Shown here: piece by piece, positions 7,208 through 59,801 of the stretch
Layout of the letters: each line of letters starts with the position of its first letter
How positions within the stretch are numbered: position 1 is the first letter of the stretch
Assembly: GCF_000302595.1 (NCBI RefSeq)
Contig: NZ_JH947126.1
Location: forward strand, 773,223-837,222
Origin: Pedobacter arcticus A12
GTDB taxonomy: Bacteria; Bacteroidota; Bacteroidia; Sphingobacteriales; Sphingobacteriaceae
Direction: 5' to 3'
Length of the DNA stretch: 64,000 nucleotides
The notes under the pieces: model-generated
The model's database searches: none
Seen by the model: only the letters and a program-made list of their open reading frames with translations
What the model was told of the DNA's origin: nothing
Program-made: the position numbers and the translations under genes

Positions 7208-7969
7208 ATGAAAGAATTTAAAAAAGACAATTTAACGGTAAAAGTTTTTGAAAATAGAACTTTGATGGGCGAAGCTGTGGCTACCGTGGTTAGCGAAAAA
7301 ATAAACGAACTTTTAAGCAAGCAAGAATTTGTAAATATCATTTTTGGCGCAGCGCCATCTCAAAATGATTTCTTCAGCGCATTGGTTCAAAAAAATGTTG
7401 CTTGGAATAAGATAAATGCCTTCCACATGGATGAGTATTTAAACCTAGATGCAGATGCACCACAAGGTTTTGGGAACTTTTTAAAAGCGCATTTATTTAC
7501 CAAAGTACCTTTTAACAGCGTTAATTACATCAACGGAAACGCCACAGACTATAAAACAGAATGTGTACGCTACAGCGACTTATTAACCCAGTTTCCAACA
7601 GATATTGTATGCTTAGGTATCGGAGAAAACACCCATCTGGCATTTAACGATCCTCATGTAGCAGATTTGAACGATCCTTTTTTAGTTAAACGAGTTGATT
7701 TAGACGAACAATGCCGCAACCAACAGGTAAACGATGGTTGTTTCAGTAATATTAACCAAGTACCTACACATGCACTTACACTTACTTTGCCTGCACTACT
7801 AAAAGCACCGTATGCTGTTTGTACCGTACCAACTGATAAAAAAGCACAGGCAGTGTACCACACCTTAGTCGAAGGTGTAAGTGATAAGTTTCCTTCAACA
7901 CATTTAAGAAATCATCCAAATGCCACCCTATTCTTAGATGATCAAAGCAGTACAAAAATCACTTTATAG
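7208..7969 (+). CDS. nagB: Glucosamine-6-phosphate deaminase-like protein (divergent NagB)
   Basis: This 253-residue protein has the NagB/isomerase fold. It should convert the NagA product to a ketose 6-phosphate plus ammonia if it acts like NagB. It keeps the HMDEY motif with Asp75, the HLAFNDP block with His143, and NQVPTHALTLTLPALL. Two known catalytic positions differ from the E. coli enzyme: Asp141 is Asn (GIGENTH) and Glu148 is Asp. The phosphate-loop segment is FGAAPSQNDF rather than the usual GSTP form. The ENxH variant seems common in a Bacteroidota subfamily, so the reaction may be the same or shifted. It forms a tight pair with the nagA-like gene. Confidence 0.75.
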   Translation: MKEFKKDNLTVKVFENRTLMGEAVATVVSEKINELLSKQEFVNIIFGAAPSQNDFFSALVQKNVAWNKINAFHMDEYLNLDADAPQGFGNFLKAHLFTKVPFNSVNYINGNATDYKTECVRYSDLLTQFPTDIVCLGIGENTHLAFNDPHVADLNDPFLVKRVDLDEQCRNQQVNDGCFSNINQVPTHALTLTLPALLKAPYAVCTVPTDKKAQAVYHTLVEGVSDKFPSTHLRNHPNATLFLDDQSSTKITL

Positions 7970-8022: not shown

Positions 8023-8838
8023 ATGAAATGTGAACTAACTACAGAACAGATACAATTTTTCCAGACCAATGGATTTATTGTCATTGAAGATTTCCTCTCT
8101 CCAGAAGAATTGGCGAAATGGCGTGAAGCAGTTACGGAAGCTATAGCAGAAAGAAAAGGACTAAAAATGCCAGGAAAAGATGCCGTAGTAGGGATGGATG
8201 ATGGCATTAACAAAGATTCAGAATACTTTTCTAAAGTTTTTGATCAGCTCCTTAATCTATGGCAAACCAACGATAAGGTGAAAGACATTATGCTTGATGA
8301 AAGGATTGGTAAAATGGCAGCACAGCTTTCTGGCGCAGATGGCATTAGAATATGGCATGACCAAGCACTGTTTAAAAAACCATGGGCAAACCCAACTTCG
8401 TGGCATTTAGACACGCCGTTTTGGTCTTTTTCTGATAGAAGAGCATTATCTATTTGGGTAGCACTAGATGATGCCACTTTAGAAAACGGGTGTCTATATT
8501 TCATCCCCGCCTCATTTAAAGAAACCACTTTCGAAAATAAAGGAATAGGGAAAAACATGGATGGTATCTTTGAAGCTTATCCTCAATTTGCGCAAGTGGC
8601 ATCGGTTTCTGCAAATATGAAAGCTGGTAGTTGTTCTTTCCATAATGGCTTAACCATACATGGTGCCGGCGCAAACATGAGCTGTGGAAACAGAAGAGCT
8701 ATGACCTGTGCTTACATGCCAGACGGAAATGTTTTCAACGGCGAACCTAACATATTACCAGATGCCTATTTGAAAACAATAAAAGTTGGGGATTTATTAA
8801 ACAACGAGGAACAAAATCCTTTAATTTATAAAGCATAA
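8023..8838 (+). CDS. Phytanoyl-CoA dioxygenase (PhyH) family protein
   Basis: This 271-residue Fe(II)/2-oxoglutarate-dependent oxygenase candidate has the facial-triad HxD at His128-Asp130 (SWHLDTPFW), a distal His in LTIHGAGAN and a following Arg in NRRAMTCAYMP. PhyH proteins hydroxylate or demethylate many small molecules, so the substrate cannot be read from the sequence. It is encoded 53 nt after the NagB-like gene and 4 nt before a TIM-barrel isomerase-like gene. It therefore probably acts on a sugar made in the same pathway. A second PhyH gene lies on the minus strand at 21409-22206. Confidence 0.85.
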   Translation: MKCELTTEQIQFFQTNGFIVIEDFLSPEELAKWREAVTEAIAERKGLKMPGKDAVVGMDDGINKDSEYFSKVFDQLLNLWQTNDKVKDIMLDERIGKMAAQLSGADGIRIWHDQALFKKPWANPTSWHLDTPFWSFSDRRALSIWVALDDATLENGCLYFIPASFKETTFENKGIGKNMDGIFEAYPQFAQVASVSANMKAGSCSFHNGLTIHGAGANMSCGNRRAMTCAYMPDGNVFNGEPNILPDAYLKTIKVGDLLNNEEQNPLIYKA

Positions 8839-8842
8839 AAAT

Positions 8843-9679
8843 ATGAGCTTCGCAGTGAAATTCTTTTGCCCGCGTTGGGGATTTGAGACCATTTCTTGGG
8901 ATACTTTTTTAAAGCAAGTAAAAAAAGCAAACTATGCTGGCATTGAGTGGTTTCCGTTTGCAGAAAAAACCGATTATAAAGAGGTATTAGGTTTATTAGA
9001 ATACTATGATTTAGATTATGCGATAGTAATGGCGGTAACAAAACCTTACCATACCTTTGAGCAATATCTAGAAAACCTCAAGCAAGATCTACGTAGATTG
9101 TTAACAATTAGAGATGAGTATAAATCGCCGATTTTTGTAAGTGCGCAAACTGGTAGAGAGTTTTTCGACTATCCTCAAATTAAACAGTGTTTAGCTATTT
9201 GTGATCAGCTGGAACTTGAATTTAAAACGCCTATTTATCAGGAAACCCACAGAAACAAATGGTCATTTGCGGCGCATACTGTAGCTCCTGTGCTAGATAA
9301 ACACACAAATCTGAAACTAACATTGGATGTTTCTCACTGGTTTTGCGTTTCCGAAAGCTATTTAGAAGACCAACAACCTGCCGTAAACAAAGCTATAGCA
9401 CATGCAAAGCATATTCACGCCCGTGTTGGACATACGCAAGGTCCGCAAGTTTGGGATCCTGCTTTACCAGAATATGCTGAAGCTTTAGAAGCTCATCTTC
9501 AAATTTGGGATAAATGGGTTGCTCGAATGAGAAAAACCAATACGCCTATTACCATTACACCAGAATTTGGACCTACCCCCTATTTAACAAAAGGTAACAG
9601 AACATCCTCTTTAAGAGACGAACAGTGGCGAGTAAATTTATGGATGAAAGATTTTTTAGGAGATCGGTACGCACAATAA
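8843..9679 (+). CDS. Sugar phosphate isomerase/epimerase-like TIM-barrel protein
   Basis: This 278-residue protein belongs to the xylose-isomerase-like (AP endonuclease 2) TIM-barrel superfamily. Likely metal ligands are Glu134 (QETHR), Asp162 (LDVSHW), His192 (HARVG) and Glu241 (PEFGP). There is no signal peptide, so it should act in the cytoplasm. It starts 4 nt after the PhyH stop, suggesting translational coupling. It is clearly paralogous to the protein at 24486-25307: both share SQTGxxFF-type, ETHR, SHW, HARVG and EFGPxPY blocks. Isomerase or epimerase activity is inferred from the fold; the substrate is unknown. Confidence 0.75.
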   Translation: MSFAVKFFCPRWGFETISWDTFLKQVKKANYAGIEWFPFAEKTDYKEVLGLLEYYDLDYAIVMAVTKPYHTFEQYLENLKQDLRRLLTIRDEYKSPIFVSAQTGREFFDYPQIKQCLAICDQLELEFKTPIYQETHRNKWSFAAHTVAPVLDKHTNLKLTLDVSHWFCVSESYLEDQQPAVNKAIAHAKHIHARVGHTQGPQVWDPALPEYAEALEAHLQIWDKWVARMRKTNTPITITPEFGPTPYLTKGNRTSSLRDEQWRVNLWMKDFLGDRYAQ

Positions 9680-9684
9680 AAACT

Positions 9685-12552
9685 ATGAAAAGAAAATCAT
9701 TTTTACAGCAAAGTGCTATTTTATCTGCTGCTGGCCTATTCACGCTAAACAGCAACGCTTTCTCTAAATCAATTGTAGCAACGTTGATAAAAGATGGCGA
9801 CGATGATTTGTACCAGCTTTTTAAAAACCCGGGAAGCAATTATCGTCCGTTTGTGAGATGGTGGTGGAACGGCAATAAAATTGAAAAATCTGAATTGGCC
9901 CGCGAACTTAAATTATTGAAAGACGCAGGTATCGGCGGTGTAGAAATCAACCCAATTTCTTTTCCGTCCAATACAGACGATATGGGCATTGCTTCTGTTG
10001 AATGGTTAAGTGATGAATGGATTGACCTTTTAAAATTCACCTTGGCGGAAGCCAAAAAACTAGACATGACCTGCGATCTTTTAGCGGGCACAGGCTTTCC
10101 TTTTGGTGCCGAGTTTTTAGAGGGTGAAGAAAGAGCGCAAGTGGTTGTAGTTGCTATCAAAAAACTGGAAGGACCAATAAAAACAGAATTCTCCGTTTTT
10201 GATCTTTTAAAAGAAGCAGACCCCGCAACCTTAAGCCCTTATACCGGGCGTAAAATGGAAATTTTAGAACTAAAACTAGTTCCAGATCCTTTAATAAACC
10301 TTGACCAAGCTATCAATTTAAAAGAGCAAGTGAAGGATGATGTGTTAAAAGTCGACTTGCCAAAAGGAAAATTTGCCATATATGCCCTTGTAAAAATTGA
10401 TGGCTTTATGCGTGTGATACAAGGTGCACCAGGCGGAAGAGGCCCTGTACTTAACCACTATAACGAAAAGGCAGTCAGTAAATATTTAAACAAAATAAGC
10501 GATACTATTCAAAACAGAATTGGACCACTTGCACCAGATATCCGTTCGTTTTTTGTGGATAGTTTGGAGATGGAGGGAGCAAATTGGACCAGCGATATGA
10601 TGGCGGAATTTGAGAAAAGACGAGGCTACGATTTGTATCCTTACCTACCCTTTATTTTGTTTAAAACTGGCAGAATGGGCAATACCGTTGATTTAAATTA
10701 TACGGTAAATTTTGGTCCAGAAATGCAAGAAAAGCTGGACCGGATGCGGTATGATTTTGAATATACCAAGGCCGAACTCTTTAGAGAACGTTTTGTAAAA
10801 ACTTACACCCAATGGTGTACAAAAAACAAAATAAAATCAAGAGCGCAAAGTTACGGTAGAGGTTGGTTTCCATTGGAAGGCAGTTTTGAGGTAGATATAC
10901 CAGAATGCGAAACTTGGTTAAAATATGGCGTTGGCGAAGAAATATCCGAAGCTGATTTTACCAAATATCCATGGCATTTAGGTCGTGGAAATACGATGAT
11001 CAACAAATATGTTTCGTCTGCAGCACATTTAAAAGACAAAAAACTCATCAGTTCAGAAGAATTGACAAATACCGACATGGTATTTAACGAGTCATTAGAA
11101 ATCTTTAAAATAGCAGGTGATCAAAGTACCATTTCTGGTGTAACTCATCCCATTTTTCACGGCTTTAATTACTCTCCACCAGCGGCGGCTTTTCCAGGTT
11201 GGATAACCTACGGTGGATACTTTAATGAGCAGAATACCATGTGGCCGTATTTTAACAACTATACGGATTATCGGGCCAGGCAGTCGGCACTATTACAGCA
11301 AGCCACCATGTTTGCAGATATTGCGATTTTAGCTCCTACGGGCGACATGTGGTCAACCGTTGGTGCACAAATGGAACCTTTTCCATCACGGGTTACGCCA
11401 CCCTACCAAAGTCTGATTTGGGAATCTATCCACCAGAACGGAAACGCCTGTGATTATGTATCGGAACAGGTAATTGCTGATATGCAGTTCAAAAAAGGTT
11501 GGATGACTTATGGTTCCAGAAAATACCATACCCTGTTTTTAATTGCAGTTAAAAGTATAGAACCAAAAACAGCAAAAAAACTTTACGATTTTGTAAAAAA
11601 TGGCGGTAGGATATTCTGTATCGAATCATTTCCAGAACAATCTTTAGGTTGGTTTAATCATCAACAAAAAGATGTAGAAGTAAAAAACTGGATCAGTAAA
11701 CTAAAAACCTTTCCAAAACAATTCATTTTATTAGAAAAGCCAGAGGTCAATTTTAACGATTGGTACAAGGCTATCCAAACAAAATACAGCATTACCCCTT
11801 ATGTAAAAATTGCAAAACCAAACACTTTTGTAACGCAGGTGAGGTACCAAACTAAAGATTCGGAAATCTTTTTGTTCAACAATGCAAGCGCTCATAAAAC
11901 CATTGATTTAGATGTAACTTTTCTATCAGAGATTAGCGCTAAAAAACAAGCTTGGATTTGGGATGCAGCCCGCGGAACCAAATTCAAATTAGACCTTAAA
12001 AACGGATCGCTAAATATTAAACTATATCCGGCTGATTCACGAATTATCGTTTTTAACAACGATAAAATCGGAGAAATATGGAAACCCATTCCAGAGGTGG
12101 TAGCAAATACAAAACCTTTAGCAAAAACTTGGAAAGTAGATTTTAAACACATGAACGGTTCGGTGAAAAGCAAAGAAATGAGCCAACTTGTAGATTTAAA
12201 AGATTTACCAGAGCTTATTGATTTTTCCGGAACGGTTTCTTATAAAACCACTTTAAACACAGCTATGCCAGCAAGCACCCATTATCTGGATTTAGGTAAG
12301 GTTTGGGGCATTGCAGAGCTCATCATCAACGGTAAAAACTTAGGCACTACTTGGTACGGCAGAAGAGCCTACAACATTGAAAAGTTGTTAAAAACCGGCG
12401 AAAACACCATCGAGATTAAGGTGACTACCGTTATGCTGAATTACATGAAATCCTTAACAGAAAACGAAACAGCGCAATATTGGTCGAATAACAAAAGAAA
12501 AGCACAACCACTTCAATCTATGGGTTTATTAGGCCCAATCTATTTATTTTAA
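9685..12552 (+). CDS. GH106-like glycosidase (putative alpha-L-rhamnosidase)
   Basis: This 955-residue protein resembles GH106 enzymes. The chosen ATG at 9685 gives a Tat-like or Sec leader (KRKSFLQQSAILSAAGLF). An upstream in-frame ATG at 9625 would overlap the previous gene by 55 nt. Family marks are RWWWNGN at residues 58-64, the GIGGVEINP segment, FFVDSLEMEGANW in the middle of the catalytic TIM barrel, and a C-terminal galactose-binding-like module with GKNLGTTWYGRRAYNI. The predicted role is removal of terminal rhamnose from an oligosaccharide in the periplasm. GH106-like clades are diverse, so specificity is an inference. It starts 5 nt after the TIM-barrel gene. Confidence 0.8.
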   Translation: MKRKSFLQQSAILSAAGLFTLNSNAFSKSIVATLIKDGDDDLYQLFKNPGSNYRPFVRWWWNGNKIEKSELARELKLLKDAGIGGVEINPISFPSNTDDMGIASVEWLSDEWIDLLKFTLAEAKKLDMTCDLLAGTGFPFGAEFLEGEERAQVVVVAIKKLEGPIKTEFSVFDLLKEADPATLSPYTGRKMEILELKLVPDPLINLDQAINLKEQVKDDVLKVDLPKGKFAIYALVKIDGFMRVIQGAPGGRGPVLNHYNEKAVSKYLNKISDTIQNRIGPLAPDIRSFFVDSLEMEGANWTSDMMAEFEKRRGYDLYPYLPFILFKTGRMGNTVDLNYTVNFGPEMQEKLDRMRYDFEYTKAELFRERFVKTYTQWCTKNKIKSRAQSYGRGWFPLEGSFEVDIPECETWLKYGVGEEISEADFTKYPWHLGRGNTMINKYVSSAAHLKDKKLISSEELTNTDMVFNESLEIFKIAGDQSTISGVTHPIFHGFNYSPPAAAFPGWITYGGYFNEQNTMWPYFNNYTDYRARQSALLQQATMFADIAILAPTGDMWSTVGAQMEPFPSRVTPPYQSLIWESIHQNGNACDYVSEQVIADMQFKKGWMTYGSRKYHTLFLIAVKSIEPKTAKKLYDFVKNGGRIFCIESFPEQSLGWFNHQQKDVEVKNWISKLKTFPKQFILLEKPEVNFNDWYKAIQTKYSITPYVKIAKPNTFVTQVRYQTKDSEIFLFNNASAHKTIDLDVTFLSEISAKKQAWIWDAARGTKFKLDLKNGSLNIKLYPADSRIIVFNNDKIGEIWKPIPEVVANTKPLAKTWKVDFKHMNGSVKSKEMSQLVDLKDLPELIDFSGTVSYKTTLNTAMPASTHYLDLGKVWGIAELIINGKNLGTTWYGRRAYNIEKLLKTGENTIEIKVTTVMLNYMKSLTENETAQYWSNNKRKAQPLQSMGLLGPIYLF

Positions 12553-12568
12553 ACTAAACACAACGAAC

Positions 12569-14035
12569 ATGAAGCATCAAAAGAAAATGATTTTAATGTT
12601 ATTAATCTTGATACAGTCAGTAGCTGTATCTGCGAAAGATTATAAAGCATCTTTTTTCCATATCAAACATGACGGAACTACGTTAAATACTCGTTCTATT
12701 CAATTTGCCATAGATTATATCCATAAAAATGGCGGTGGTAGATTGGTTTTCCACGTTGGAAGATATTTAACTGGCTCTATTCATCTTAAATCTAACGTAA
12801 CCTTACAATTAGAAGAAGGTGCGGTTTTATTAGGTTCAACCAACCCCTTTGATTACGATAGAATTGGACAAACTGCGCTTATCCATGCCCGCGATTTAGA
12901 AAACGTAGGTATCACCGGTAAGGGAATGATTGACGGACAAGGAAGAGCTTTGGCCAATAACTCCATTGCTTATGCAAATGACGGTTTGATTGAAGATATT
13001 CTAAAATACGACCGTACCCGAGAATCCATTAGACCAATGATTATTTATTTTTACAACTGTACCAACGTAACTATTAAAGATCTTATTTTACAAAACTCGG
13101 CTTGTTGGTTACAAACCTATGAACGTTGTAAAAACATGGTTATTGATGGTATTACGGTAAACAACGTTGCCTTTTGGAATAGCGATGGAATTGATATTGT
13201 AGATTGCGACAACGTAGTAATTACCAACAACAATATTGATGCGGCAGATGATGGCATTTGCTTAAAATCACATACGGAAGGTTACTATTGCAACAACATC
13301 CTCATCGAAAACAACATTGTGCGTACCAGCGCAAACGGTATAAAACTGGGTACTGCTGGTAAAGGTGGTTTCAGAAACATCAAAGCCATTAATAATACGG
13401 TTTACAACACTTACCGCTCGGCCATTGCTTTACAGAGTGTTGATGGTGGCTTTTTAGAAGATATCGTTATCGATGGTTTAAAGAGCATCAATACTGGAAA
13501 CGTTATTTACCTAAGATTAGGAGAAAGAGTTGCTGGTAAAAAATCAACGATGGACCGGATTTCCATTAAAAACGTGGTAGCAGATGTGCCTTTTGAAAAA
13601 GCCGATGCAGGTTATGATTACGAAGGACCAATTGAGGACATGCCGAGAAATATCTCCCCTATCATTATTGCTGGTTTACCTGGCCAATACATTAACGATG
13701 TAACTTTCACAAATTTTGAGGTTTCCTACCCTGGTCGTGGAAGTAAATTTATTGCTTATGTTCCTTTAGATAAATTGGATAGCATCCCAGAACAACCAGC
13801 ACAATACCCAGAGTTTTCTCAGTTTAAAGAAATACCTGCTTGGGGAATTTATGTTAGACATGCGAAAAACATCAATTTTTCTAATATCCATTTAACTGCA
13901 GAAAAGAAAGATTACAGATTGCCAATTATAATGGACGATGTACACGGTGCGCAATTGAAAAAAGTAACTTTTAAACAAATAGATCAGAAAAAACTATTGT
14001 ACACACAAAAATCGACCAACATTAAGGTTGATTAA
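12569..14035 (+). CDS. GH28-family glycoside hydrolase (polygalacturonase-like)
   Basis: This 488-residue secreted protein has a signal peptide cleaved near residue 22 (VAVSA|KDY). A right-handed parallel beta-helix follows, with GAVLLGSTNPFDY and ITGKGMIDGQG. The catalytic Asp residues are visible as Asn204-Ser-Asp206 (WNSDGIDI) and Asp227-Asp228 (AADDGICLKS). The GHG motif of classical polygalacturonases is replaced by SANGIKLGT, as in many rhamnogalacturonase-like or exo-acting members. It probably cleaves galacturonic acid or a related uronosyl linkage. It lies 16 nt after the GH106-like gene, so the two may act in turn on a rhamnose/uronate side chain. Confidence 0.85.
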   Translation: MKHQKKMILMLLILIQSVAVSAKDYKASFFHIKHDGTTLNTRSIQFAIDYIHKNGGGRLVFHVGRYLTGSIHLKSNVTLQLEEGAVLLGSTNPFDYDRIGQTALIHARDLENVGITGKGMIDGQGRALANNSIAYANDGLIEDILKYDRTRESIRPMIIYFYNCTNVTIKDLILQNSACWLQTYERCKNMVIDGITVNNVAFWNSDGIDIVDCDNVVITNNNIDAADDGICLKSHTEGYYCNNILIENNIVRTSANGIKLGTAGKGGFRNIKAINNTVYNTYRSAIALQSVDGGFLEDIVIDGLKSINTGNVIYLRLGERVAGKKSTMDRISIKNVVADVPFEKADAGYDYEGPIEDMPRNISPIIIAGLPGQYINDVTFTNFEVSYPGRGSKFIAYVPLDKLDSIPEQPAQYPEFSQFKEIPAWGIYVRHAKNINFSNIHLTAEKKDYRLPIIMDDVHGAQLKKVTFKQIDQKKLLYTQKSTNIKVD

Positions 14036-14074
14036 ATTCAATAGCTAAAGCCTACAATTTAAAAATCTATCGTA

Positions 14075-16393
14075 ATGAAACAGCTCAGTAAATGTTTATT
14101 GATTACCGCTTTAATAGGGCAAACGGCTTATTTTGTAAATGCTCAAAATAAAACCGAATTATATAAATACATCAAACCTATTATTGGTACCCAAAAAATG
14201 GGACATACTTTTCCGGGCGCTACCGTACCTTTTGGTTCGGTACAGTTAAGCCCAGATACGGATACGCTTTCTTACGAAGAAAACGGAAAGTACAATAAAG
14301 ATATGTATAAATACTGCGCTGGCTATCAGTACGATGACCCAACAATTGTAGGCTTTAGTCATACCCATTACAGCGGTACAGGTCACTCAGACTTGGGCGA
14401 CTTTTTAATTATGCCAACGGTAGGCAAGGTTCAGCTTAATCCGGGAACGGCTAACAATCCAGAGAATGGTTACCGTTCAAGATATAGCCATGCAAATGAG
14501 GTTTCTGAAGCAAATTACTACAAAGTAAAATTAGATGATGATAATATTTTGGCAGAATTAACTACTTCTACAAGAGTAGGTTTTCACCAATATACCTTCC
14601 CAAAATCAAAGGAAGCCAATATTATTTTAGATTTAATGCATGGCATTTACAACTACGACAATAAAAACGTTTGGACCTTTGTTAAGGTTGTGAATGATTC
14701 TTTGGTTGTTGGTTACAGGCAAACAAGCGGATGGGCAAAACAGCGTACCGTATATTTTGCCATGTCTTTTTCTAAACCATTTAAATCTTACGGTGCTAAA
14801 GATTTCACTCCAAAAGAAGTTTACAAAGGTTTTTGGGCAAAAATCGATCAAACCAAAAACTTCTCGCAACTGGCAACAAAACAGCTTAGAATGCATTTTA
14901 ATTTTGATACAGAAGATGCAGAAAAAATCAAAATCAAATTTGCCATATCGCCTGTGAGTAGTGATAATGCTTTGATGAATACGCAAGCCGAAATACCGGG
15001 TTGGGATTTTGACCGCGTTAAGCAACAAGGTCAGCAAGCTTGGAACAAAGAATTACAGCGTATCGAAGTGCAAACCAAAAAACCAGAAGAGGCTATCAAT
15101 TTTTACACGGCCATGTACCACGCTTTTTTAAGCCCAACCGTTTATATGGATACCAATGGCGACTATAAAGGGCTTGACCAGCAAGTACACCAAGCAAAAG
15201 ATTTCACCAATTACACTACATTTTCTTTATGGGATACCTACAGAACCCTACATCCACTTTTTAACATTATACAACCAAAAAGAAATAGTGACATGGTGAA
15301 ATCCATGCTGGCCCATTTTGATCAAAGTCCCTTGCCTATGCTACCGGTTTGGTCTAACTCGGCAAATGATACTTGGTGCATGAGTGGCTACCATAGCGTA
15401 TCTGTAATTGCAGATGCTATTATTAAAGGCAATTTCACTGGCGATGTAAATAAAGCTTTGGAAGCTTGCGTAACTACCGCCAACCAGCGCAATTACGAAG
15501 GCATTGGCGATTATATTGACAAAGGATATGTTCCGTTTGATAAAAACCGAACAGCCGTATCTAACACTTTAGAATACGCTTATGATGATTGGTGTATTGC
15601 GCAATTGGCAAAGAAAATTGGAAACACCAAGGTTTACGATACCTTTATCAAACGTTCAGAAAACTGGCGAAATGTTTATGATGCATCTATCGGTTTTATG
15701 CGTCCCCGTTTATCTGATGGTACATTCAGAAAAGATTTTGATGTTTTAGAAACAGAAGGGCAAGGTTTTATTGAAGGTAACGCATGGAATTATAGTCTGT
15801 ACGTTCCGCAAAACCCAAGCGAAATGATCAAAGTAATGGGCGGTGATAAAAAATTTATTCCTCATTTAGATTCATTGTTTACCATGGATTTGCCCGATGC
15901 ATTTTTTGCCCATACAGAGGATATAACCAGAGAAGGCATCATTGGGAATTATGTACACGGAAACGAACCCGCACATCATGTTGCGTATTTGTACAACTAC
16001 ACTTCGCAACCTTGGAAAACACAAAAAACGGTACGCATGATTTTAGAAAAGCAATACCACAACGGCCCTGATGGCTTGGGTGGAAATGATGATTGCGGAC
16101 AGATGAGCGCTTGGTACATGATGTCATCATTGGGTTTTTATCCGATAGCACCAGCTTCTGACCGATATGATTTAGGCAGTCCATCAGTGCTAAACGCTAA
16201 ACTTAACCTCGAAAACGGAAAGCAATTTATTGTAGAAGCTAAAAACCAATCGCCTAAAAACGTTTACGTGAAAGCAGTACTACTAAACGGAAAATCATTA
16301 AATCGTTCTTACATCAGCCACAGCGAAATAACAGCTGGAGGTAAATTAACCTTTATAATGTCAAGCTTACCCAATAAAAAGCTATATAATTGA
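14075..16393 (+). CDS. GH92-family alpha-mannosidase
   Basis: This 772-residue exported enzyme has an N-terminal signal peptide (ALIGQTAYFVNAQ). The N-terminal sandwich holds the family signature IGTQKMGHTFPGATVPFG and the FSHTHYSGTGHSDLGD segment. The C-terminal (alpha/alpha)6 domain holds QGFIEGNAWNY and GGNDDCGQMSAWYMMSSLGF. GH92 enzymes are Ca-dependent exo-alpha-mannosidases acting on N-glycans or mannosylated polymers. Here the enzyme would remove terminal mannose from a heteropolysaccharide or glycoprotein side chain. The length is normal for the family and the C-terminus is intact. Confidence 0.93.
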   Translation: MKQLSKCLLITALIGQTAYFVNAQNKTELYKYIKPIIGTQKMGHTFPGATVPFGSVQLSPDTDTLSYEENGKYNKDMYKYCAGYQYDDPTIVGFSHTHYSGTGHSDLGDFLIMPTVGKVQLNPGTANNPENGYRSRYSHANEVSEANYYKVKLDDDNILAELTTSTRVGFHQYTFPKSKEANIILDLMHGIYNYDNKNVWTFVKVVNDSLVVGYRQTSGWAKQRTVYFAMSFSKPFKSYGAKDFTPKEVYKGFWAKIDQTKNFSQLATKQLRMHFNFDTEDAEKIKIKFAISPVSSDNALMNTQAEIPGWDFDRVKQQGQQAWNKELQRIEVQTKKPEEAINFYTAMYHAFLSPTVYMDTNGDYKGLDQQVHQAKDFTNYTTFSLWDTYRTLHPLFNIIQPKRNSDMVKSMLAHFDQSPLPMLPVWSNSANDTWCMSGYHSVSVIADAIIKGNFTGDVNKALEACVTTANQRNYEGIGDYIDKGYVPFDKNRTAVSNTLEYAYDDWCIAQLAKKIGNTKVYDTFIKRSENWRNVYDASIGFMRPRLSDGTFRKDFDVLETEGQGFIEGNAWNYSLYVPQNPSEMIKVMGGDKKFIPHLDSLFTMDLPDAFFAHTEDITREGIIGNYVHGNEPAHHVAYLYNYTSQPWKTQKTVRMILEKQYHNGPDGLGGNDDCGQMSAWYMMSSLGFYPIAPASDRYDLGSPSVLNAKLNLENGKQFIVEAKNQSPKNVYVKAVLLNGKSLNRSYISHSEITAGGKLTFIMSSLPNKKLYN

Positions 16394-16414
16394 GGTTACT
16401 ATTTTTCAAACTAA

Positions 16415-18529: not shown

Positions 18530-18556
18530 ATTAAAACCTATAAGAAAACAGAAAAT

Positions 18557-19738
18557 ATGATCATTAAAAAAATTGCCCTTTCCCTTTTGTTGGCAAGCAC
18601 TATGGTTAGTGCAATGGCCCAAAAACCTTTGGTAAATGTGAAGAAGGAATTCGCTTTTGCTACCAAACAGTATGAAAATATGTTGGCCAGCCACCCAGAC
18701 ATTAGGAAGTTTCCACAATCTACTAAAAAAGACGGATCGCCCGATAATAGAACCTCAGAATGGTGGTGTAGTGGATTTTTCGGTGGTTCACTATGGTATT
18801 TATATGAATTTACCGGCGAAGACAAATGGAAAACCGCTGCCGATAAATGGACCAAAGCATTGGATAAAGAAAAATACAATACCCGTACTCATGATTTGGG
18901 TTTTATGCTTTATTGCCCCTACGGAAATGGTTACCGCCTTACAAAAAACAAAGACTATATAGAACCAATGGTTACGGGCGCAAACTCTTTAGCCACCAGG
19001 TTTGATCCAAAATATGGTGTAATCAAATCTTGGGATAAGCATGCCGACTGCGAGTATCCGGTGATTATTGATAACATGATGAACTTAGAATTTTTGTTTT
19101 GGGCAGCTAAAGAATCTAAAAACAATAAGCTACGCGATATTGCCATAACACATGCAGACAACACTTTAAAGCATCATTTCAGAGATGATTTTAGCAGTTA
19201 CCATGTAGTTTGCTATTTACCCGGAACAAAAGTTTTTAGAAAGAAAACGCATCAAGGTGCTGCAGATTCTTCTGCGTGGGCCCGTGGACAAGCTTGGGCT
19301 TTATATGGTTACACGATGATGTATAGAGAAACGAAAAACAAGAAATATCTGGCTCAGGCAGAAGGTATAGCAAAGTTTGTTATCAATCACCCAAACATGC
19401 CTAAAGATAAAGTGCCTTATTGGGATTTTGACGCACCAAAAATCCCTAACGAAGAAAGAGATGCCTCTGCAGCCGCAATTTTTGCATCATCGCTATTGGA
19501 GCTAAGCACTTTTACAAAAGCAGAAAACAAAAAGCTATACTTTTCTACCGCAGAACAGATGTTGGTTAGCTTGGCGTCACCGGCTTATACCGCTAAACTA
19601 AACGAAAACAACAACTTTATTTTGAAACATTCGGTTGGGCACAAACCTGGGAATTCTGAGATCAATACGCCTTTGGTTTATGCAGATTACTATTATTTAG
19701 AAGCATTGTTAAGATACAAAAAGCTTACAAAACAATAA
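18557..19738 (+). CDS. GH88 unsaturated glucuronyl hydrolase
   Basis: This 393-residue (alpha/alpha)6 protein has a signal peptide (STMVSAMAQ). It matches GH88, with Asp113 in THDLGFM and Asp172 in IIDNMMNLE placed about 59 residues apart, close to the known D88/D149 pair of the Bacillus enzyme. GH88 hydrates the 4,5-unsaturated uronosyl residue left by lyases. It is the expected partner of the PL8 lyase immediately upstream. It is the last gene of the co-directional polysaccharide run and is followed by a terminator hairpin. Confidence 0.93.
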   Translation: MIIKKIALSLLLASTMVSAMAQKPLVNVKKEFAFATKQYENMLASHPDIRKFPQSTKKDGSPDNRTSEWWCSGFFGGSLWYLYEFTGEDKWKTAADKWTKALDKEKYNTRTHDLGFMLYCPYGNGYRLTKNKDYIEPMVTGANSLATRFDPKYGVIKSWDKHADCEYPVIIDNMMNLEFLFWAAKESKNNKLRDIAITHADNTLKHHFRDDFSSYHVVCYLPGTKVFRKKTHQGAADSSAWARGQAWALYGYTMMYRETKNKKYLAQAEGIAKFVINHPNMPKDKVPYWDFDAPKIPNEERDASAAAIFASSLLELSTFTKAENKKLYFSTAEQMLVSLASPAYTAKLNENNNFILKHSVGHKPGNSEINTPLVYADYYYLEALLRYKKLTKQ

Positions 19739-19766
19739 GGCGATACAAAAGGCTCGAAAACAAAAG

Positions 19767-19793
19767 GACAAGTCGGAATAGGCTTGTCTTTTT
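19767..19793 (+). terminator. Intrinsic terminator after the GH88 gene
   Basis: A 6 bp GACAAG / CTTGTC stem with a 10 nt loop is followed directly by TTTTTAATTT on the plus strand, 28 nt after the GH88 stop. It marks the likely end of the polysaccharide operon. Confidence 0.7.
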
Positions 19794-19800
19794 AATTTAA

Positions 19801-19922
19801 GCTAGTGTCCGTGTCAACCTTAACATGTCGGTTCGGTTGTCACCCTGAGCGGAGTCGAAGGGTCATTCGCAAAGGCTTCGACTCCGCTCAGCCTGACACA
19901 ACATACTTGACACGACACTGGT
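19801..19922. repeat. MITE-like palindromic repeat, copy 1
   Basis: This 122 bp element can fold almost end to end. The inner arms (TGTCACCCTGAGCGGAGTCG... and its near-complement ...CGACTCCGCTCAGCCTGACA) pair over 23 bp with two mismatches. Outer ends carry GTGTCAA / TTGACAC. A second copy about 90% identical lies at 21289-21410. It sits between convergent genes and ends 2 nt before the lacI stop codon, so it could also serve as a terminator. No transposase gene is inside. Confidence 0.8.
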
Positions 19923-19924
19923 TT

Positions 19925-20986
19925 TTAATTGCTGTACGATTTATAATTCTCTTTGGTAATGATATCTATAGGCATAAAATGCGTCGCTTCTACATGTGTA
20001 TTTAGTACAACGCTCTGATACAATGCCATAATACCTTTATAACCTTGTTCTTGTGGTTTCTGACATATTAAAAAGTCTATCGTTCCTCTTTTTAACTGTG
20101 CTATGCTTTCTGTTAAAAAATCGTAACCTACTAAAAATAAATGATTAAGGTTATACTTCTCTATATATTGGGCAACAGAAAATACCCTCGAATTAGTTAC
20201 AAAAATTGCTTTTATATCGCTATGCTCAGAAAAAACCTCTTTAAGCTTGGCCTCTACAGATCTATAGTCTGTTTGCGTGGTAATATCTGTTTTAATAATA
20301 TTTACCTTCTTCTCATGATCTTTAAAATAAGAAATAAAACCTTCTTCTTTTCTTAATAAGTGGTGATAACTGTCAATTTCTTTAGAGATGTTAACAATCA
20401 AAATTTTATCGCCTTTTTTTACCAGATAATTGATCATGTGCGCACTCAAATGCCCACTCTGGAATAAATCTGGACCTATATAACTTAGCCGCGAATCATA
20501 AGGAATATCTGAATTTATAAAAACCTGTGGAACCTTTGCTTGGCTACATTCCTTGGAAAACGCTAAGCATTCATCCATAAAAATGGGCGCTACCAGTATC
20601 CCATCAATATTGTTTTTTAAAATTTCTTTAGACTGCTTTACAAAAGATTCTTTATCGTTTTGATCGTAAAAGTATTTATCCACTACAATTCCAAACTGCC
20701 TAATTTCTGCTTCGGCAAACTCAATACCTTTAATCGGTGCTTTCCAAAACTCTGTCTCGGATGATACTGCTGGAATTAGACTTGCAAAATGTAAAACTTT
20801 TTTCGAGGCTAAGCGCCGAGCTAAAATGTTGGGCTGGTAATCCAGCTCTTTCATTATTACCAATATCTTATTTTTTGTCTCTTCAGAAACACCTTTTCTA
20901 CCGTGTATAACTCGGTCAACAGTACCGGTAGAAACTTTTGCTCGTCTCGCAATTTCCTTTACGCCAGTTAGCATATTTGTTTTCAT
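19925..20986 (-). CDS. LacI-family transcriptional regulator
   Basis: This 353-residue protein has an N-terminal LacI helix-turn-helix (VKEIARRAKVSTGTVDRVIHGR) and a hinge helix near residues 53-62 (NILARRLASKK). The periplasmic-binding-protein-like effector domain contains IDGILVAPIF and the LSYIGPDLFQSGHLSA region. It probably senses a sugar or sugar phosphate and represses or activates nearby catabolic genes. It lies convergent to the GH88 gene and is bracketed by two palindromic repeats. No HTCS, ECF sigma or SusR-type regulator is seen in the window, so this and the AraC gene are the local regulator candidates. Confidence 0.93.
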   Translation of the reverse strand: MKTNMLTGVKEIARRAKVSTGTVDRVIHGRKGVSEETKNKILVIMKELDYQPNILARRLASKKVLHFASLIPAVSSETEFWKAPIKGIEFAEAEIRQFGIVVDKYFYDQNDKESFVKQSKEILKNNIDGILVAPIFMDECLAFSKECSQAKVPQVFINSDIPYDSRLSYIGPDLFQSGHLSAHMINYLVKKGDKILIVNISKEIDSYHHLLRKEEGFISYFKDHEKKVNIIKTDITTQTDYRSVEAKLKEVFSEHSDIKAIFVTNSRVFSVAQYIEKYNLNHLFLVGYDFLTESIAQLKRGTIDFLICQKPQEQGYKGIMALYQSVVLNTHVEATHFMPIDIITKENYKSYSN

Positions 20987-21288
20987 TTCTCCACACTCTG
21001 TTATTGTCTGTAAAAGTATTAAACTATTCGATAAAAGATAGTGAAAATTAAATTTAAAAACAACGATAAAAATGATTTTAGTTGCCGATTATCAAGCCGT
21101 TGCGAATAAAAGCCTGCCTTGTAATTTATTGCTCAAGATTAACGAAAGCTGAAAAAGAAAATCAAAATGAAGACGAGCTGAGGGAGTAGAGTTTGTGGCG
21201 TAGTTGAATGACCAAAAGAAGAAAAATTAGACGAGTAAAATAAAGTTACACTCGCCTAATTTTATAGTGGATATTAACAAAAAAAGGA
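20987..21288. other. Gene-free stretch upstream of lacI
   Basis: About 300 nt of AT-rich DNA lies between the lacI start and palindrome copy 2. It holds the predicted lacI promoter near 21033-21063 and no ORF with coding character. The GAAAGCTGAAAAAG-type purine-rich part near 21140-21230 shows no recognisable feature. Confidence 0.5.
21033..21063 (-). promoter_or_regulatory. Candidate Bacteroidota-type promoter of lacI
   Basis: On the minus strand TTG (21061-21063) is followed after 20 nt by TATCTTTT (21033-21040), a near match to the Bacteroidota TAnnTTTG -7 box. It lies about 47 nt before the lacI start. The final G of the box is missing, so the call is tentative. Confidence 0.3.
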
Positions 21289-21410
21289 GCTAGTGTCATG
21301 TCAACCTTAAAATGTCGGTTCGATTGTCACCCTGAGCGGAGTCGAAAAGTCATTCGCAGAGGCTTCGACTCGGCTCAGCCTGACACAACATACTTGATAT
21401 GATACTAGTT
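21289..21410. repeat. MITE-like palindromic repeat, copy 2
   Basis: This is the second copy of the ~120 bp palindrome at 19801-19922, in the same orientation. Arms are CACCCTGAGCGGAGTCGAA and TTCGACTCGGCTCAGCCTG, with outer ends GCTAGTGTCATGTCAA and TTGATATGATACTAG. It overlaps the TAA of the PhyH gene on the minus strand by two bases. The two copies enclose lacI and its promoter. Confidence 0.8.
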
Positions 21411-22206
21411 ACTTAATTAAAAAGTTTGCATCTTCCTGTATTCCTTCGCTGTTAGATTGCATCAACACATCATCATTTACCATATCAATAGCTTCGGTTG
21501 CAGATGGGTAATTGCCTTTATAAGGTTTGTTGCTGATTAAATTATACGCAGAAATTAACGACCATCTTGGTGCATCACTTAAATTAGCATCAGAGCGGTG
21601 TAAGGTATTGCTATGGAAAAACAAAGTATCACCTGCCTCCATTTCTACATAAACCAGTTCTAATTGCTCCATCAATACATCTATCCGTTCTTGGTTTGCA
21701 CCAACTTGTTCTCCACTAAAACCATGTTCTATTCTGCCCAATAAATGAGATCCTTTTAGCACTTGCAGGCAGCCATTTTCTTTAGTGGACGGACTTAATG
21801 CTGTAAGTACGCTCAGCATCTGTGGGTATAAAAAGCCATCGCGGTACCAATAACCATAATCCTGATGCCACTCCCAAGCGCCACCAACTTTTGGTTCTTT
21901 TTGCATCAGTTTAGAATGAAAATGTGCAGGTTTACCGGCTAACAAAAGTTCGACACCTGCTACAATTCGTTCGCTTCGAGCTAACAAACTATAAGCATCA
22001 TCGCCCAAAGAGTACCATAATGCAAGTTTAGTTCTTAAACCGTTGGCATCTCCCCTATCAAATGATTTATGACTAATCACTTCATCGTGGATGGCAATGT
22101 CGTACAGTTTTTTAACTTCTTGCGATTTCAGCATGCCTTTAATCAGTACATAACCATCTTTATCAAAAAGATCTTTGTCTGCTTTACTTAGTTTTTTATA
22201 ATCCAT
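21409..22206 (-). CDS. Phytanoyl-CoA dioxygenase (PhyH) family protein, second copy
   Basis: This 265-residue Fe(II)/2-oxoglutarate oxygenase candidate has HxD in WEWHQDYGYW, a distal His in HSNTLHRSDAN and an Arg in APRWSLIS. It starts inside the last codons of the upstream MFS gene (11 nt overlap), so the two are translationally linked. The substrate is probably the solute brought in by that transporter. It is only distantly similar to the PhyH at 8023-8838, but both are associated with a TIM-barrel isomerase paralogue. The stop codon lies within a palindromic repeat. Confidence 0.87.
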   Translation of the reverse strand: MDYKKLSKADKDLFDKDGYVLIKGMLKSQEVKKLYDIAIHDEVISHKSFDRGDANGLRTKLALWYSLGDDAYSLLARSERIVAGVELLLAGKPAHFHSKLMQKEPKVGGAWEWHQDYGYWYRDGFLYPQMLSVLTALSPSTKENGCLQVLKGSHLLGRIEHGFSGEQVGANQERIDVLMEQLELVYVEMEAGDTLFFHSNTLHRSDANLSDAPRWSLISAYNLISNKPYKGNYPSATEAIDMVNDDVLMQSNSEGIQEDANFLIK

Positions 22207-23443
22207 TTTCTTGAGTTTGATTTGTTTTTATTTCGGGTATTAAACGAGTAAGTAAGAAATAGCCAAGTAGATAGGTACAGCCCACCATCATAAATATACC
22301 ACCGTAGCCACCGGTGAATTCTAAAATCCTTCCGGTTAAAAGTGATAATACAATACCTCCGCTTACCGCAGAAAGTGTTGCTACGCCCATTACGGTGCCC
22401 ACCTCATCTGATGGAAAAAGATCTGTAATGGTGGCGAAGATGTTTGCGGTCCAGCCACAATGCGCCGCCGCACCTAAGCCAATTAGTATTACGGCCGTCC
22501 ATAAATCGTCTGTAAAACCAACGCCGCAAAGTAATAATGCCATTAAAGCACATACCAAAAGTGCCTGTTTCCGGGCTGCGTAAATCCCTTTCCCTATTTT
22601 TATCAAGTACGAAGAATAAGTTCCACCAGCCAAACTACCCACATCTGCCATCAAATAAACAGCAACCAAGGGCCAACCTAAAGATGAAGTACTGACGGCT
22701 TTTGTCTCGTTCAAAAATTTTGGTAGCCAGTACAATAAAAACCACCAAGTTGGGTCAGAGATAAATCTTACCAAACAAATGGTTAAAACTTCTCTTTTTA
22801 ATACCACCTGTTTCCAAGTTTTAGAGCTTTTTACAGCTACTTGTTCATTCACAATTACCTGTTCATGAACAATCAGTGGCAGTTCTGGCTTTTTATAAAT
22901 CAATAACCAAAAGAACAACCATATAAAACCGAGCGCTCCTATTAAAATAAAAGCCCATTGCCAACCAAATCTGTAGGCAATAAATGGAATTAATAAAGGC
23001 GCTACAATAGCTCCTATGTTAGAACCGGCATTAAAAAAACCAGTTGCAAATGCTTTTTGCGATGGGGGAAATAATTCGGCGACGGTTTTAACGCTTGCCG
23101 GAAAGTTGACAGATTCTCCTAAACCCAAGCTAAAACGGGCAAGCCCAAAACCTACAGCGCCTTTTGCAAACGCATGTGCCATTCCCGCTGCGCTCCATAA
23201 AGCAACACCGATTGCAAATATCCACTTGGTGCCAAACTTATCCAGCAATTTACCTGTCAATACCACGCCCAAGCCATAAGAAACCTGAAATGAGGTAACG
23301 ATATAGCTATATTCTACCTCGCTCCAATTATACAAGTGCTGTAATTCGGGTGCCAGAATACTGAGTACATGTCTGTCCAAATAGTTGATGGTTGTACTAA
23401 AAAAGAGTAGGATACAGATTTTCCAAGCATAAGAGATTTTCAT
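22196..23443 (-). CDS. MFS transporter, hexuronate (ExuT/ACS)-like
   Basis: This 415-residue protein has 12 predicted membrane segments. It shows anion:cation symporter features: TINYLDRHVLSILAPEL in the first helix, the loop motif GKLLDKFGTKWIF, and RFSLGLGESVNFPASVKTVAELFP, typical of ExuT-like hexuronate carriers. It likely imports a sugar acid across the inner membrane, which fits the PL8/GH88/GH28 enzymes nearby. It is divergent from the AraC gene, with 163 nt of shared promoter space, and overlaps the downstream PhyH gene. Confidence 0.88.
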   Translation of the reverse strand: MKISYAWKICILLFFSTTINYLDRHVLSILAPELQHLYNWSEVEYSYIVTSFQVSYGLGVVLTGKLLDKFGTKWIFAIGVALWSAAGMAHAFAKGAVGFGLARFSLGLGESVNFPASVKTVAELFPPSQKAFATGFFNAGSNIGAIVAPLLIPFIAYRFGWQWAFILIGALGFIWLFFWLLIYKKPELPLIVHEQVIVNEQVAVKSSKTWKQVVLKREVLTICLVRFISDPTWWFLLYWLPKFLNETKAVSTSSLGWPLVAVYLMADVGSLAGGTYSSYLIKIGKGIYAARKQALLVCALMALLLCGVGFTDDLWTAVILIGLGAAAHCGWTANIFATITDLFPSDEVGTVMGVATLSAVSGGIVLSLLTGRILEFTGGYGGIFMMVGCTYLLGYFLLTRLIPEIKTNQTQENGL

Positions 23444-23606
23444 ATTTATTTAAAACAGAAAGATTTTCCGAAAAACGGATTTAGGTGAATTGGTTATTAC
23501 GAAGCTAATTCAAAAACTCAGGAGTACTTAGCTCTAATTTTGCCAACTATAAAACAAATTTTGCCCTTATAATCATTTATACAAAAAAATTAGTAACTTT
23601 TGTTCA

Positions 23607-24479
23607 ATGAAACCAGTTCATTTAAAGGTACCGGCTTATAGTAAGTTTTATATTGATGCTCGACGAGAAAAGGTGAGCTATTTTGCAAATCCTTGGCATT
23701 TTCATGATGAGCTGGAACTTACTTTTATTATCAAAAGCGAAGGCACAAAATTCATTGGCGATCATATTTCGGAGTTCAAACCCGGGGAAATCATACTTTT
23801 AGGTTCACGTTTACCTCATTATTGGCGCAACCATCAAAGTTATTATCAAAACACAGACGGTGACGGCGCCGAGGCAATCATCATCAGGTTTAACCCTGAT
23901 TATGCGGGTAGCGAATTTCTTAAAATTCCGCCGATGAAACCGGTGTTGGATTTATTAAATGACGCTAAGCGAGGAATTGCAGTGAATACAAAAAGCAATT
24001 TATTGTTGCCTCAGCAATTGATTCATTTTTTAACACTTGACGAAGGCGAAAGGATTGTTGCTTTAACAAACATTCTGCTAACCATCGCCACGCAAAAGCA
24101 ATACACCTTTTTATGCAGCATTGGTTTTGCGCATCAATACAAAAGCAATGATATCGAAAAAATAGATGCAGTTTATAATTATGTATTAAACAATTTCAAA
24201 AGCGATTTAAGCGTAAAAGACATCGCTCTAAAATGTAATATGAATACCGCTGCGTTCTGTAGATATTTCAAAAAGAAAACGGGCAAAACCTTTAAAGATT
24301 TTATGAATGAAATTAGGCTAGGAAACGCCTCGGGATTACTCCTTAAAGGCGATTTAACCATTGCACAAGTTGCATTTGAATCGGGTTTTAATAATCCATC
24401 TTATTTTAACCGTTTATTTAAAAGAACAAATGGCAAAACCCCCAAAGAATATCAGCAACAATACCTAAATCCAAACTAA
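23607..24479 (+). CDS. AraC-family transcriptional regulator
   Basis: This 290-residue regulator has an N-terminal cupin-like effector domain (NPWHFHDELELTFI, FKPGEIILLGSRLPHYW) and two C-terminal helix-turn-helix units (VKDIALKCNMNTAAFCRYFKK and IAQVAFESGFNNPSYFNRLFK). It probably senses a sugar or sugar acid. It is divergent from the MFS-PhyH pair and lies 6 nt before the TIM-barrel gene, so it likely controls both transcripts. A TAACTTTTG sequence just before the start resembles a -7 box with one extra T. Confidence 0.93.
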   Translation: MKPVHLKVPAYSKFYIDARREKVSYFANPWHFHDELELTFIIKSEGTKFIGDHISEFKPGEIILLGSRLPHYWRNHQSYYQNTDGDGAEAIIIRFNPDYAGSEFLKIPPMKPVLDLLNDAKRGIAVNTKSNLLLPQQLIHFLTLDEGERIVALTNILLTIATQKQYTFLCSIGFAHQYKSNDIEKIDAVYNYVLNNFKSDLSVKDIALKCNMNTAAFCRYFKKKTGKTFKDFMNEIRLGNASGLLLKGDLTIAQVAFESGFNNPSYFNRLFKRTNGKTPKEYQQQYLNPN

Positions 24480-24485
24480 TAAAAC

Positions 24486-25307
24486 ATGAATATCATTTTT
24501 TTTATCCCTCGGTGGGGAAACCGAGATTTAACATGGGCTGATTTTGCTTTGAAAGCTAAAAAAGCTGGCTACCATGGCGTTGAGGCTGGCTTACCAACCG
24601 GCAAAAGTGAGCAGACAGAGATGTTTGATGCGTTCCGAAACAATGGTTTAGCATGGATTGGACAACATTTTGAAACCGCTACTGCTGATTTTGAGGAGCA
24701 CTGCAAGCAATACGAAACCAGGCTATTACAGTTAGCGTCGGCGAAACCGATTTTCATTAATTCGCAAACGGGTAAAGACTTTTTTCCTTTTGAACAGAAC
24801 AGTAAATTGATTGACATTGCAACTGCCGTAAGTGAACAAACTGGTATCAACATCCTACATGAAACGCATCGTGGCAAGTTCAGTTTTTGTACATCGGCTA
24901 CTGCTCCATATTTAGAACAGCACCCCAATTTACGCTTAACCGCCGATTTTTCTCATTGGTGTTGCGTCGCAGAATCGTACTTACAGGACCAAAAAGAGAT
25001 TTTAGATGTAGCCATTAGCCGGAGCAATCATTTTCATGCTCGGGTGGGTTTTCCGGGAGGTCCTCAGGTCAATAACCCCGCCGCTCCCGAATGGCAGGAA
25101 GCGATCGATTTCCATTGTGTTTGGTGGGATGCGATTGTACAGCATCACCTAGTTAAAAAATCAGAGACACTGACCATCACCTGCGAATTTGGTCCATTTC
25201 CCTACATGCCACAGTTACCATTTAGTAAACAGGATGTGAGTTCTTTATGGGATGCAAATATGTTTATGAAAAACCTTTTAGAAAAACGATACGCTAGCTT
25301 AAAATAA
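24486..25307 (+). CDS. Sugar phosphate isomerase/epimerase-like TIM-barrel protein, second copy
   Basis: This 273-residue xylose-isomerase-like TIM-barrel protein is a paralogue of the one at 8843-9679. Likely metal ligands are Glu126 (HETHR), Asp154 (ADFSHW), His184 (HARVG) and Glu234 (CEFGP). Starting 6 nt after the AraC stop, it is likely co-transcribed with that regulator and co-regulated with the divergent MFS-PhyH pair. The recurrence of PhyH plus this barrel suggests the two enzymes act in one pathway. The substrate is unknown. Confidence 0.75.
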   Translation: MNIIFFIPRWGNRDLTWADFALKAKKAGYHGVEAGLPTGKSEQTEMFDAFRNNGLAWIGQHFETATADFEEHCKQYETRLLQLASAKPIFINSQTGKDFFPFEQNSKLIDIATAVSEQTGINILHETHRGKFSFCTSATAPYLEQHPNLRLTADFSHWCCVAESYLQDQKEILDVAISRSNHFHARVGFPGGPQVNNPAAPEWQEAIDFHCVWWDAIVQHHLVKKSETLTITCEFGPFPYMPQLPFSKQDVSSLWDANMFMKNLLEKRYASLK

Positions 25308-57367: not shown

Positions 57368-57373
57368 ATACCC

Positions 57374-59767: not shown

Positions 59768-59801
59768 TATTTTGACTAATAAATGAAAAAAAATCCTAGC
59801 A

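Follow-up and report, generated by a model that had tools for sequence, protein, structure and literature searches.

PhyH-family oxygenases are recurrently paired with a xylose-isomerase-like TIM-barrel family in carbohydrate loci of Bacteroidota

The genome of Pedobacter arcticus A12 (4.23 Mb) carries four PhyH genes and only two genes of a xylose-isomerase-like TIM-barrel family, here TIM1 and TIM2. Both lie within the 64,000-nucleotide stretch of contig NZ_JH947126.1 analysed here (positions 773,223 to 837,222), hereafter the window, whose own numbering is used throughout. In module 1, the gene for PhyH1, a PhyH-family Fe(II)/2-oxoglutarate (2OG) oxygenase (8023..8838, plus strand; PF05721, 117.8 bits against a cut-off of 22), is followed by TIM1 (8843..9679, plus strand), which begins 4 bp past it. 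In module 2 (21409-25307), genes for a major facilitator superfamily (MFS) transporter and a second oxygenase, PhyH2, on the minus strand diverge from those for an AraC-family regulator and TIM2 on the plus strand. Comparison with other genomes tied the barrel family to oxygenase genes in many Bacteroidota, within varied carbohydrate loci and often beside a sugar MFS transporter or an AraC regulator. This comparison supports the gene association and the conservation of the active sites, whereas the chemistry and substrate are what we infer from them. The explanation tentatively favoured, with confidence slightly short of even, is that PhyH1-TIM1 and PhyH2-TIM2 are two instances of a recurring catabolic module, in which a cytosolic Fe(II)/2OG oxygenase and a metal-dependent TIM barrel would oxidise and then eliminate or isomerise an uncommon sugar.

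Co-occurrence of PhyH with the TIM-barrel family

To describe the association, a census of 117 TIM-family loci outside the window was assembled, consisting of 25 contig loci, 87 stretches of Bacteroidota genomes and 5 annotated plasmid records. TIM1 itself was the query by which 25 of the 117 loci were found. The 87 stretches comprise 66 of the 74 non-own matches from a search of genomes of the taxonomic family (G114, G134, G098, G104, G119, G129, G047 and G102 were left out) and 21 of the 22 from a search of the phylum, the remaining one being already included. Five of the 52 plasmid records matching TIM2 were examined, and the counts exclude the short loci L001-L006 and L032-L061, most of which duplicate other loci. 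A PhyH gene was present within 4 kb of the TIM gene in 68 of the 117 loci, against an expectation of ~0.0035 PhyH genes per locus (~0.4%) calculated from how densely PhyH occurs in 61 family genomes (87 matches). Two pairs of loci in the TIM1 clade encode identical proteins (L012/L148 and L027/L149); when each pair is counted once, 66 of 115 loci have PhyH, and omission of the entire TIM1 clade leaves 40 of 87. By clade of the TIM tree, PhyH was linked in 28 of 30 TIM1 loci, all nine loci of its sister clade, 31 of the 49 loci of all other clades and none of the 29 of a clade associated with DUF1501 genes. For the two exceptions in the TIM1 clade, the genome encodes a PhyH1 at another site (69% and 74% identity).

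The TIM family is patchily distributed, being found in 59 of 151 genomes of the taxonomic family and, at a strict cut-off, in 21 of 395 of the phylum. Among 61 Sphingobacteriaceae-family genomes, PhyH was present in all 20 with a TIM gene and in 17 of the 41 without one (one-sided Fisher p 2.6e-6, by a test that ignores relatedness and genome size). The PhyH-TIM pairing is well supported. A sequence-only reading of the window had made its proposal depend on the two families occurring together in other genomes; this co-occurrence is real, falls mostly in carbohydrate loci and is stronger than that reading could know. A full-text search of the open-licence literature found no description of the pairing.

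The fine arrangement of the genes bears on whether they merely share a type of glycan locus, with no common pathway. PhyH and TIM are also found apart, as this explanation would have it. However, PhyH lies within 400 bp and on the same strand in 59 of the 117 loci, and in 58 of these 59 it is upstream of TIM; 54 of the close pairs begin within 30 positions of the neighbour's end and 19 overlap. This constancy of order, an enrichment far over expectation and the linkage of several PhyH lineages to TIM make coincidental company very improbable.

The oxygenase partners differ and have been exchanged

TIM1 and TIM2 align end to end with 36% identity across 274 columns and have the ETHR, SHW, HARVG and EFGP blocks in common, bearing out the paralogy proposed in the sequence-only reading, which had also located the open reading frames (ORFs) correctly and assigned both PhyH proteins in agreement with PF05721. 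PhyH1 and PhyH2, on the other hand, share 24% identity, and a 118-row PhyH tree, built by a quick method and with several long branches, puts them in different clades. The closest solved relatives of the two also differ, being SnoK for PhyH1 (5epa, 2e-17) and leucine hydroxylase for PhyH2 (5nch, 2e-17). Given that the barrels are paralogous and the oxygenases belong to separate lineages, duplication of the whole pair was rejected. The earlier proposal of a duplicated pair consequently holds for its TIM half and fails for its PhyH half, and the route for an unusual sugar that was attached to it stays plausible. Judged by sequence, the barrel family is the element common to both modules and the oxygenase partners differ.

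The same independence was seen on a wider scale. On the PhyH tree, whose members were drawn mostly from TIM loci, TIM linkage requires 11 changes of state (minimum forced number 8; mean after shuffling 37.9), and PhyH-linked rows are spread across most clades of the TIM tree. Background PhyH genes in the tree were viewed with ~1.5 kb per side, and "unlinked" accordingly means that no TIM lies within that distance. All 39 non-window rows of the PhyH1 clade are TIM-linked, a figure inflated by the sampling, as unlinked PhyH1 homologues exist. Because TIM-linked PhyHs occur in several lineages, partners have been exchanged without loss of the link.

In the records from Kozakia, Klebsiella and Paraburkholderia, the three examined, the gene directly downstream of TIM encodes a 2-oxoglutarate/iron oxygenase of another, IPNS/EFE-like family (TIM and oxygenase at L064 8995-10883, L065 6977-8892 and L066 6797-8871). 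By sequence, the nearest structure to the Klebsiella oxygenase is the ethylene/succinate-forming enzyme 9ovh (2e-68), and an NCBIfam scan of the proteobacterial oxygenases returned no family at 1e-8. Two of the three loci are near genes for a class II aldolase, GhrA and an amino-acid-type ABC transporter, neighbours that hint at a different substrate class. In our judgement, the strongest sign of a shared pathway is that the link survives when the oxygenase lineage, or even its family, changes.

Active sites of the oxygenase and the barrel

In PhyH enzymes, the H-x-D...H motif forms the iron triad and an arginine binds 2OG. The corresponding positions, H128-x-D130, H213 and R224 in PhyH1 numbering, are conserved in all 66 aligned TIM-linked PhyHs, and the same four columns are invariant in a 25-row PhyH alignment including PhyH1 and PhyH2. 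The barrels are more distant from their named family: TIM1 scored 20.9 bits against PF01261, under the cut-off of 31.1, and TIM2 gave no match at 1e-3. Nevertheless, PF01261 matched 19 of 20 TIM-family members at E 0.01 (best 2e-11), and kinship of the family to PF01261 is likely, though TIM1 and TIM2 themselves fall outside the cut-off. Residues E134, R137, D162, S164, H165, R194, Q202 and W222 of TIM1 are identical in 117 of 117 loci, and H136, H190 and E241 are each conserved in 116. Of these, E134, D162, H190 and E241 are the putative metal ligands. The sequence-only reading had named four metal ligands and called the barrels isomerases; the ligands are to be understood as read from motifs, and the second term as a label of fold that does not imply activity.

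The best solved match of the TIM profile was AsbF (3dx5, E=1e-4), with ETH aligned on ETH and the D-x-x-H also aligned. AsbF differs in serving siderophore synthesis as a 3-dehydroshikimate dehydratase, and the match spans only part of the profile, model positions 12-158 of 272. A second resemblance is to the 3-keto-glycoside beta-eliminases AtOGE and CGE, which are described as TIM barrels that bind a divalent metal and place an [E/H]-x-H with a catalytic His on strand 5 and Asp, His and Glu on strands 6, 7 and 8, respectively (PMC10628242). For AtOGE, the ligands reported are His132 (a Glu in the C-glycoside enzymes), Asp163 and His189, with Glu233 as a weak fourth; the catalytic residue is His134, and the H134A substitution abolishes activity (PMC10628242). 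E134-T-H136, D162, H190 and E241 of TIM1 fit this [E/H]-x-H, D, H, E pattern by motif only, in the same order and with the same two-residue offset to the candidate base (PMC10628242). The E-x-H site of the barrel fits an isomerase no better than it fits an eliminase or dehydratase.

This bears on an alternative in which PhyH is a radical C-epimerase or ring-modifying oxygenase and TIM an ordinary aldose-ketose isomerase or 3-epimerase, acting before or after it. Among solved structures, the best matches to PhyH1 include SnoK, EvdO2 and SnoN (E 2e-17 to 5e-13), whose substrates are the sugar portions of natural products, and the fold family of the barrel includes isomerases and epimerases (from the Pfam name, on a weak match). 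The closest solved relatives of PhyH2, however, include amino-acid and ectoine hydroxylases, and the E-x-H of the barrel aligns with the dehydratase AsbF and not with an epimerase. We consider this alternative unlikely. SnoK (5epa), EvdO2 (4xab), MysH (9c9n), leucine hydroxylase (5nch) and EctD (3emr) belong to the same superfamily as PhyH1 and PhyH2 and are distant matches; none of them is known to act in sugar catabolism.

A putative oxidation and elimination route

No export signal was seen by eye in PhyH1, TIM1, PhyH2 or TIM2, whereas the glycosidases and lyase of the locus (GH106, GH28, GH92, PL8 and GH88) have signal-like N-termini by the same inspection, and so both enzymes should act on small sugars in the cytosol. 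The likeness of the barrel site to AsbF and AtOGE favours oxidation by PhyH followed by proton abstraction at the barrel with elimination or isomerisation. In the favoured oxidation and elimination route, the substrate of module 1 would be a small uncommon sugar freed by co-encoded surface glycosidases (GH106 and GH28, with more in Pedobacter), and that of module 2 an uncommon sugar imported by the MFS transporter. PhyH would oxidise the sugar at a C-H bond to give a keto or hemiketal sugar. The barrel would then hold a divalent metal on E134, D162, H190 and E241, with H136 as the base that takes the acidified alpha proton, and beta-elimination or isomerisation would yield an ordinary sugar intermediate.

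AtOGE and CGE likewise act after an oxidation step; C3 is oxidised there by a dehydrogenase, unlike the PhyH-TIM modules with their oxygenase neighbour (PMC10628242). The levoglucosan pathway (LgdA/LgdB1/LgdB2/LgdC) is similarly a small oxidation-elimination set, and both LgdB1 and LgdB2 carry the annotation sugar phosphate isomerase (PMC7676230). It differs in being dehydrogenase-driven and in having a known substrate (PMC7676230).

Carbohydrate setting of the modules

The arrangement PhyH1-TIM1-GH106-GH28 was found in Pedobacter, Chitinophaga, Niabella, Flavobacterium, Mucilaginibacter and others, the closest named loci to TIM1 being from Pedobacter (70% identity). In the window, TIM1 is followed on the plus strand by a GH106 alpha-L-rhamnosidase (9685..12552; PF17132, 182.5 bits; the ORF was called from 9625, with the likely start at 9685) and a GH28-like enzyme (12569..14035; PF00295, 78 bits), which is kept 3' of GH106. 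Within 4 kb of TIM, GH106 was present in 29 of the 30 TIM1-clade loci and GH28 in 26, counts whose query seeds came from the same loci as were counted. This setting points to a glycan bearing rhamnose and galacturonate. At the Niabella hibiscisoli locus (L024), PhyH1 and TIM1 stand next to GH106 and GH28 genes that are split into several open frames, a state that sequencing error or decay may explain.

Elsewhere in the P. arcticus genome are UxaC, KduI and a RhaI-like isomerase (409.6 bits, under the cut-off of 531). The presence of these genes makes a third, less ordinary residue the likelier target of module 1, and for the same reason the barrel is unlikely to be a replacement rhamnose or uronate isomerase. 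The L-rhamnose isomerase family PF06134 (RhaA) had no match in this genome or in any of the 151 family genomes, and its absence here is uninformative given that it is missing from all of them.

The sequence-only reading had suggested an oxidative or demethylating route for a modified sugar. In a demethylating form of it, PhyH would oxidatively O-demethylate a sugar such as 2-O-methyl-fucose, 2-O-methyl-xylose or 4-O-methyl-glucuronate, and TIM would isomerise the freed sugar. Pectic glycans carry O-methyl sugars and would suit a module with GH106 and GH28; both enzymes look cytosolic and the oxygenase needs O2. The demethylated products, though, would be ordinary sugars, each with its own isomerase, and UxaC, KduI and the RhaI-like isomerase are encoded elsewhere. 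Furthermore, no formaldehyde gene appeared among the 25 of 84 neighbour families viewed, and the modules occur with several types of glycosidase. O-demethylation is therefore given a low probability. No paper on 2OG-dependent demethylation of sugars was relevant by title in the open-licence literature search.

Module 2 has many counterparts among the relatives. Outside the TIM1 and sister clades, the 31 PhyH-linked loci have an MFS gene nearby in 12, an AraC gene in 13, a Gfo/Idh/MocA gene in 6 and other AP_endonuc_2 genes in 5, again by queries seeded from the counted loci. Across 95 neighbour proteins, hand-picked out of 179, 17 matched MFS_1 and 11 Sugar_tr. A Runella plasmid carries a single array of AraC-DUF1080-Gfo-TIM-MFS-PhyH-TIM.

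Several observations weigh against a shared oxidation and elimination module. No PhyH lies within 4 kb at 49 of the 117 TIM loci, which consist of the whole DUF1501 clade (29/29), 18 of the 49 loci of unnamed clades and 2 of the 30 TIM1-clade loci; three of the 18 have the other oxygenase family instead, and one (L085) has a PhyH (L162) 6.6 kb away. Conversely, PhyH1 homologues occur without TIM beside AraC or SusC-type genes in two genomes, and in two Mesorhizobium plasmids and one Deinococcus plasmid, whose contexts showed no TIM and no evident common neighbour. Gfo and DUF1080 neighbours are few: a Gfo gene is near none of the 30 TIM1-clade or 9 sister loci, DUF1080 is near only 1 of the 31 others, and the 29 window genes scanned included no DUF1080 gene and no Gfo/Idh/MocA or flavin dehydrogenase gene of the type that makes 3-keto sugars. 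The TIM profile did not recover the AtOGE/CGE structures 8BVK, 7EXZ, 7DNN or 7EXB at E 10. Finally, the glycosidase neighbours vary, with GH78 (at a locus without PhyH), GH120, GH30, amylase and others, and the substrates accordingly probably differ; one substrate for all is unlikely.

A DUF1501-linked clade, probably exported in part

A DUF1501 gene lies within 4 kb of TIM in 26 loci (including L071, L073, L086, L087, L089, L090, L091, L094, L098 and L100), and these together with three further loci form a single TIM clade of 29 rows, in which no PhyH was found within 4 kb at any locus. A PSD1 (DUF1549/DUF1553) protein is encoded near TIM in 25 of the 29. In the one example scanned (L091 3642-10220), the operon reads PSCyt1-DUF1549-DUF1553, DUF1501, TIM, DUF2231-PSCyt1. 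By a crude hydropathy rule applied in place of a signal-peptide program, a strongly hydrophobic N-terminus was assigned to 13 of the 26 DUF1501-linked TIMs, compared with 0 of 68 PhyH-linked and 1 of 23 remaining TIMs, and the three extra loci of the clade have RR-type N-termini by eye. Part of this branch is thus probably exported. 2-Oxoglutarate would be scarce outside the cytosol, and a cytochrome-bearing system may there stand in PhyH's place. The open-licence literature search found no paper on DUF1501, DUF1549 or DUF1553.

A broader and more speculative proposal, which we hold as possible but doubtful, is that the barrel represents a new class of metal-dependent lyase or isomerase for sugars oxidised in an oxygen-dependent manner, served by two Fe/2OG oxygenase families in the cytosol and, for the exported clade, by the cytochrome-linked DUF1549/DUF1553-DUF1501 system.

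Organisation of the window

The polysaccharide locus containing module 1 runs on the plus strand. By profile scan, it opens with a SusC/SusD-type pair (389-3601 and 3613-5034) and a CBM9-like protein (5287-5934), followed by NagA (6000-7196; TIGR00221, 310 bits against a cut-off of 226) and a NagB-like gene (7208-7969); the last three are retained at several other Pedobacter loci. The description of these two Nag genes in the sequence-only reading is confirmed for NagA, whereas the NagB-like gene scores under the NagB cut-offs (115 vs 237). Downstream of PhyH1, TIM1, GH106 and GH28, the profile scan identified GH92 (14075-16393), a PL8 lyase (16415-18529) and a GH88-like enzyme (18557-19738). 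A LacI-family regulator on the minus strand (19925..20986; profile scan) separates module 1 from module 2.

The ORF positions in module 2 confirm the divergence of MFS-PhyH2 from AraC-TIM2 described earlier. PhyH2 (21409..22206, minus strand; PF05721, 117.7 bits against a cut-off of 22) overlaps by 11 bp with the sugar or sugar-acid MFS transporter gene (22196..23443, minus strand; PF07690), which is nearest to the galactonate-transporter model TIGR00893 (224.8 bits, under the cut-off of 395). The AraC-family regulator (23607..24479, plus strand; PF12833 and PF00165) has a cupin-like N-terminus, with PF07883 under its cut-off, and TIM2 (24486..25307, plus strand) begins 6 bp past it. The AraC/MFS intergenic region contains a direct repeat, TTTTGCC-14-TTTTGCC (23538..23565, plus strand; period 21 bp), a weak candidate for an AraC-type operator. 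It is the sole exact copy in the window and its right half is retained in a relative (L067); with up to two mismatches, 5 sites were found in the window against 2.05 expected, hardly above chance.

Elsewhere in the window, a BtrH_N and DUF4872 protein (34031-35011) adjoins a polysaccharide deacetylase, and a phosphoketolase-type cluster (56165-60839) has acetate kinase, phosphoketolase and class I fructose-bisphosphate aldolase consecutively.

Implications

Many Bacteroidota loci for glycan use include PhyH and "sugar phosphate isomerase" genes, whose names are vague. Their recurrent pairing offers an aerobic sugar route concrete enough to test and a means of assigning both families, and the DUF1549/DUF1553/DUF1501 operons may become easier to interpret as well. 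Should the barrel act on the product of the oxygenase, the scheme of oxidation and then elimination known from the breakdown of levoglucosan and C-glycosides would extend to oxygenases. The barrel as a new class of lyase or isomerase would then, if real, form part of an aerobic, oxygenase-driven counterpart to the dehydrogenase-driven 3-keto-glycoside pathways.

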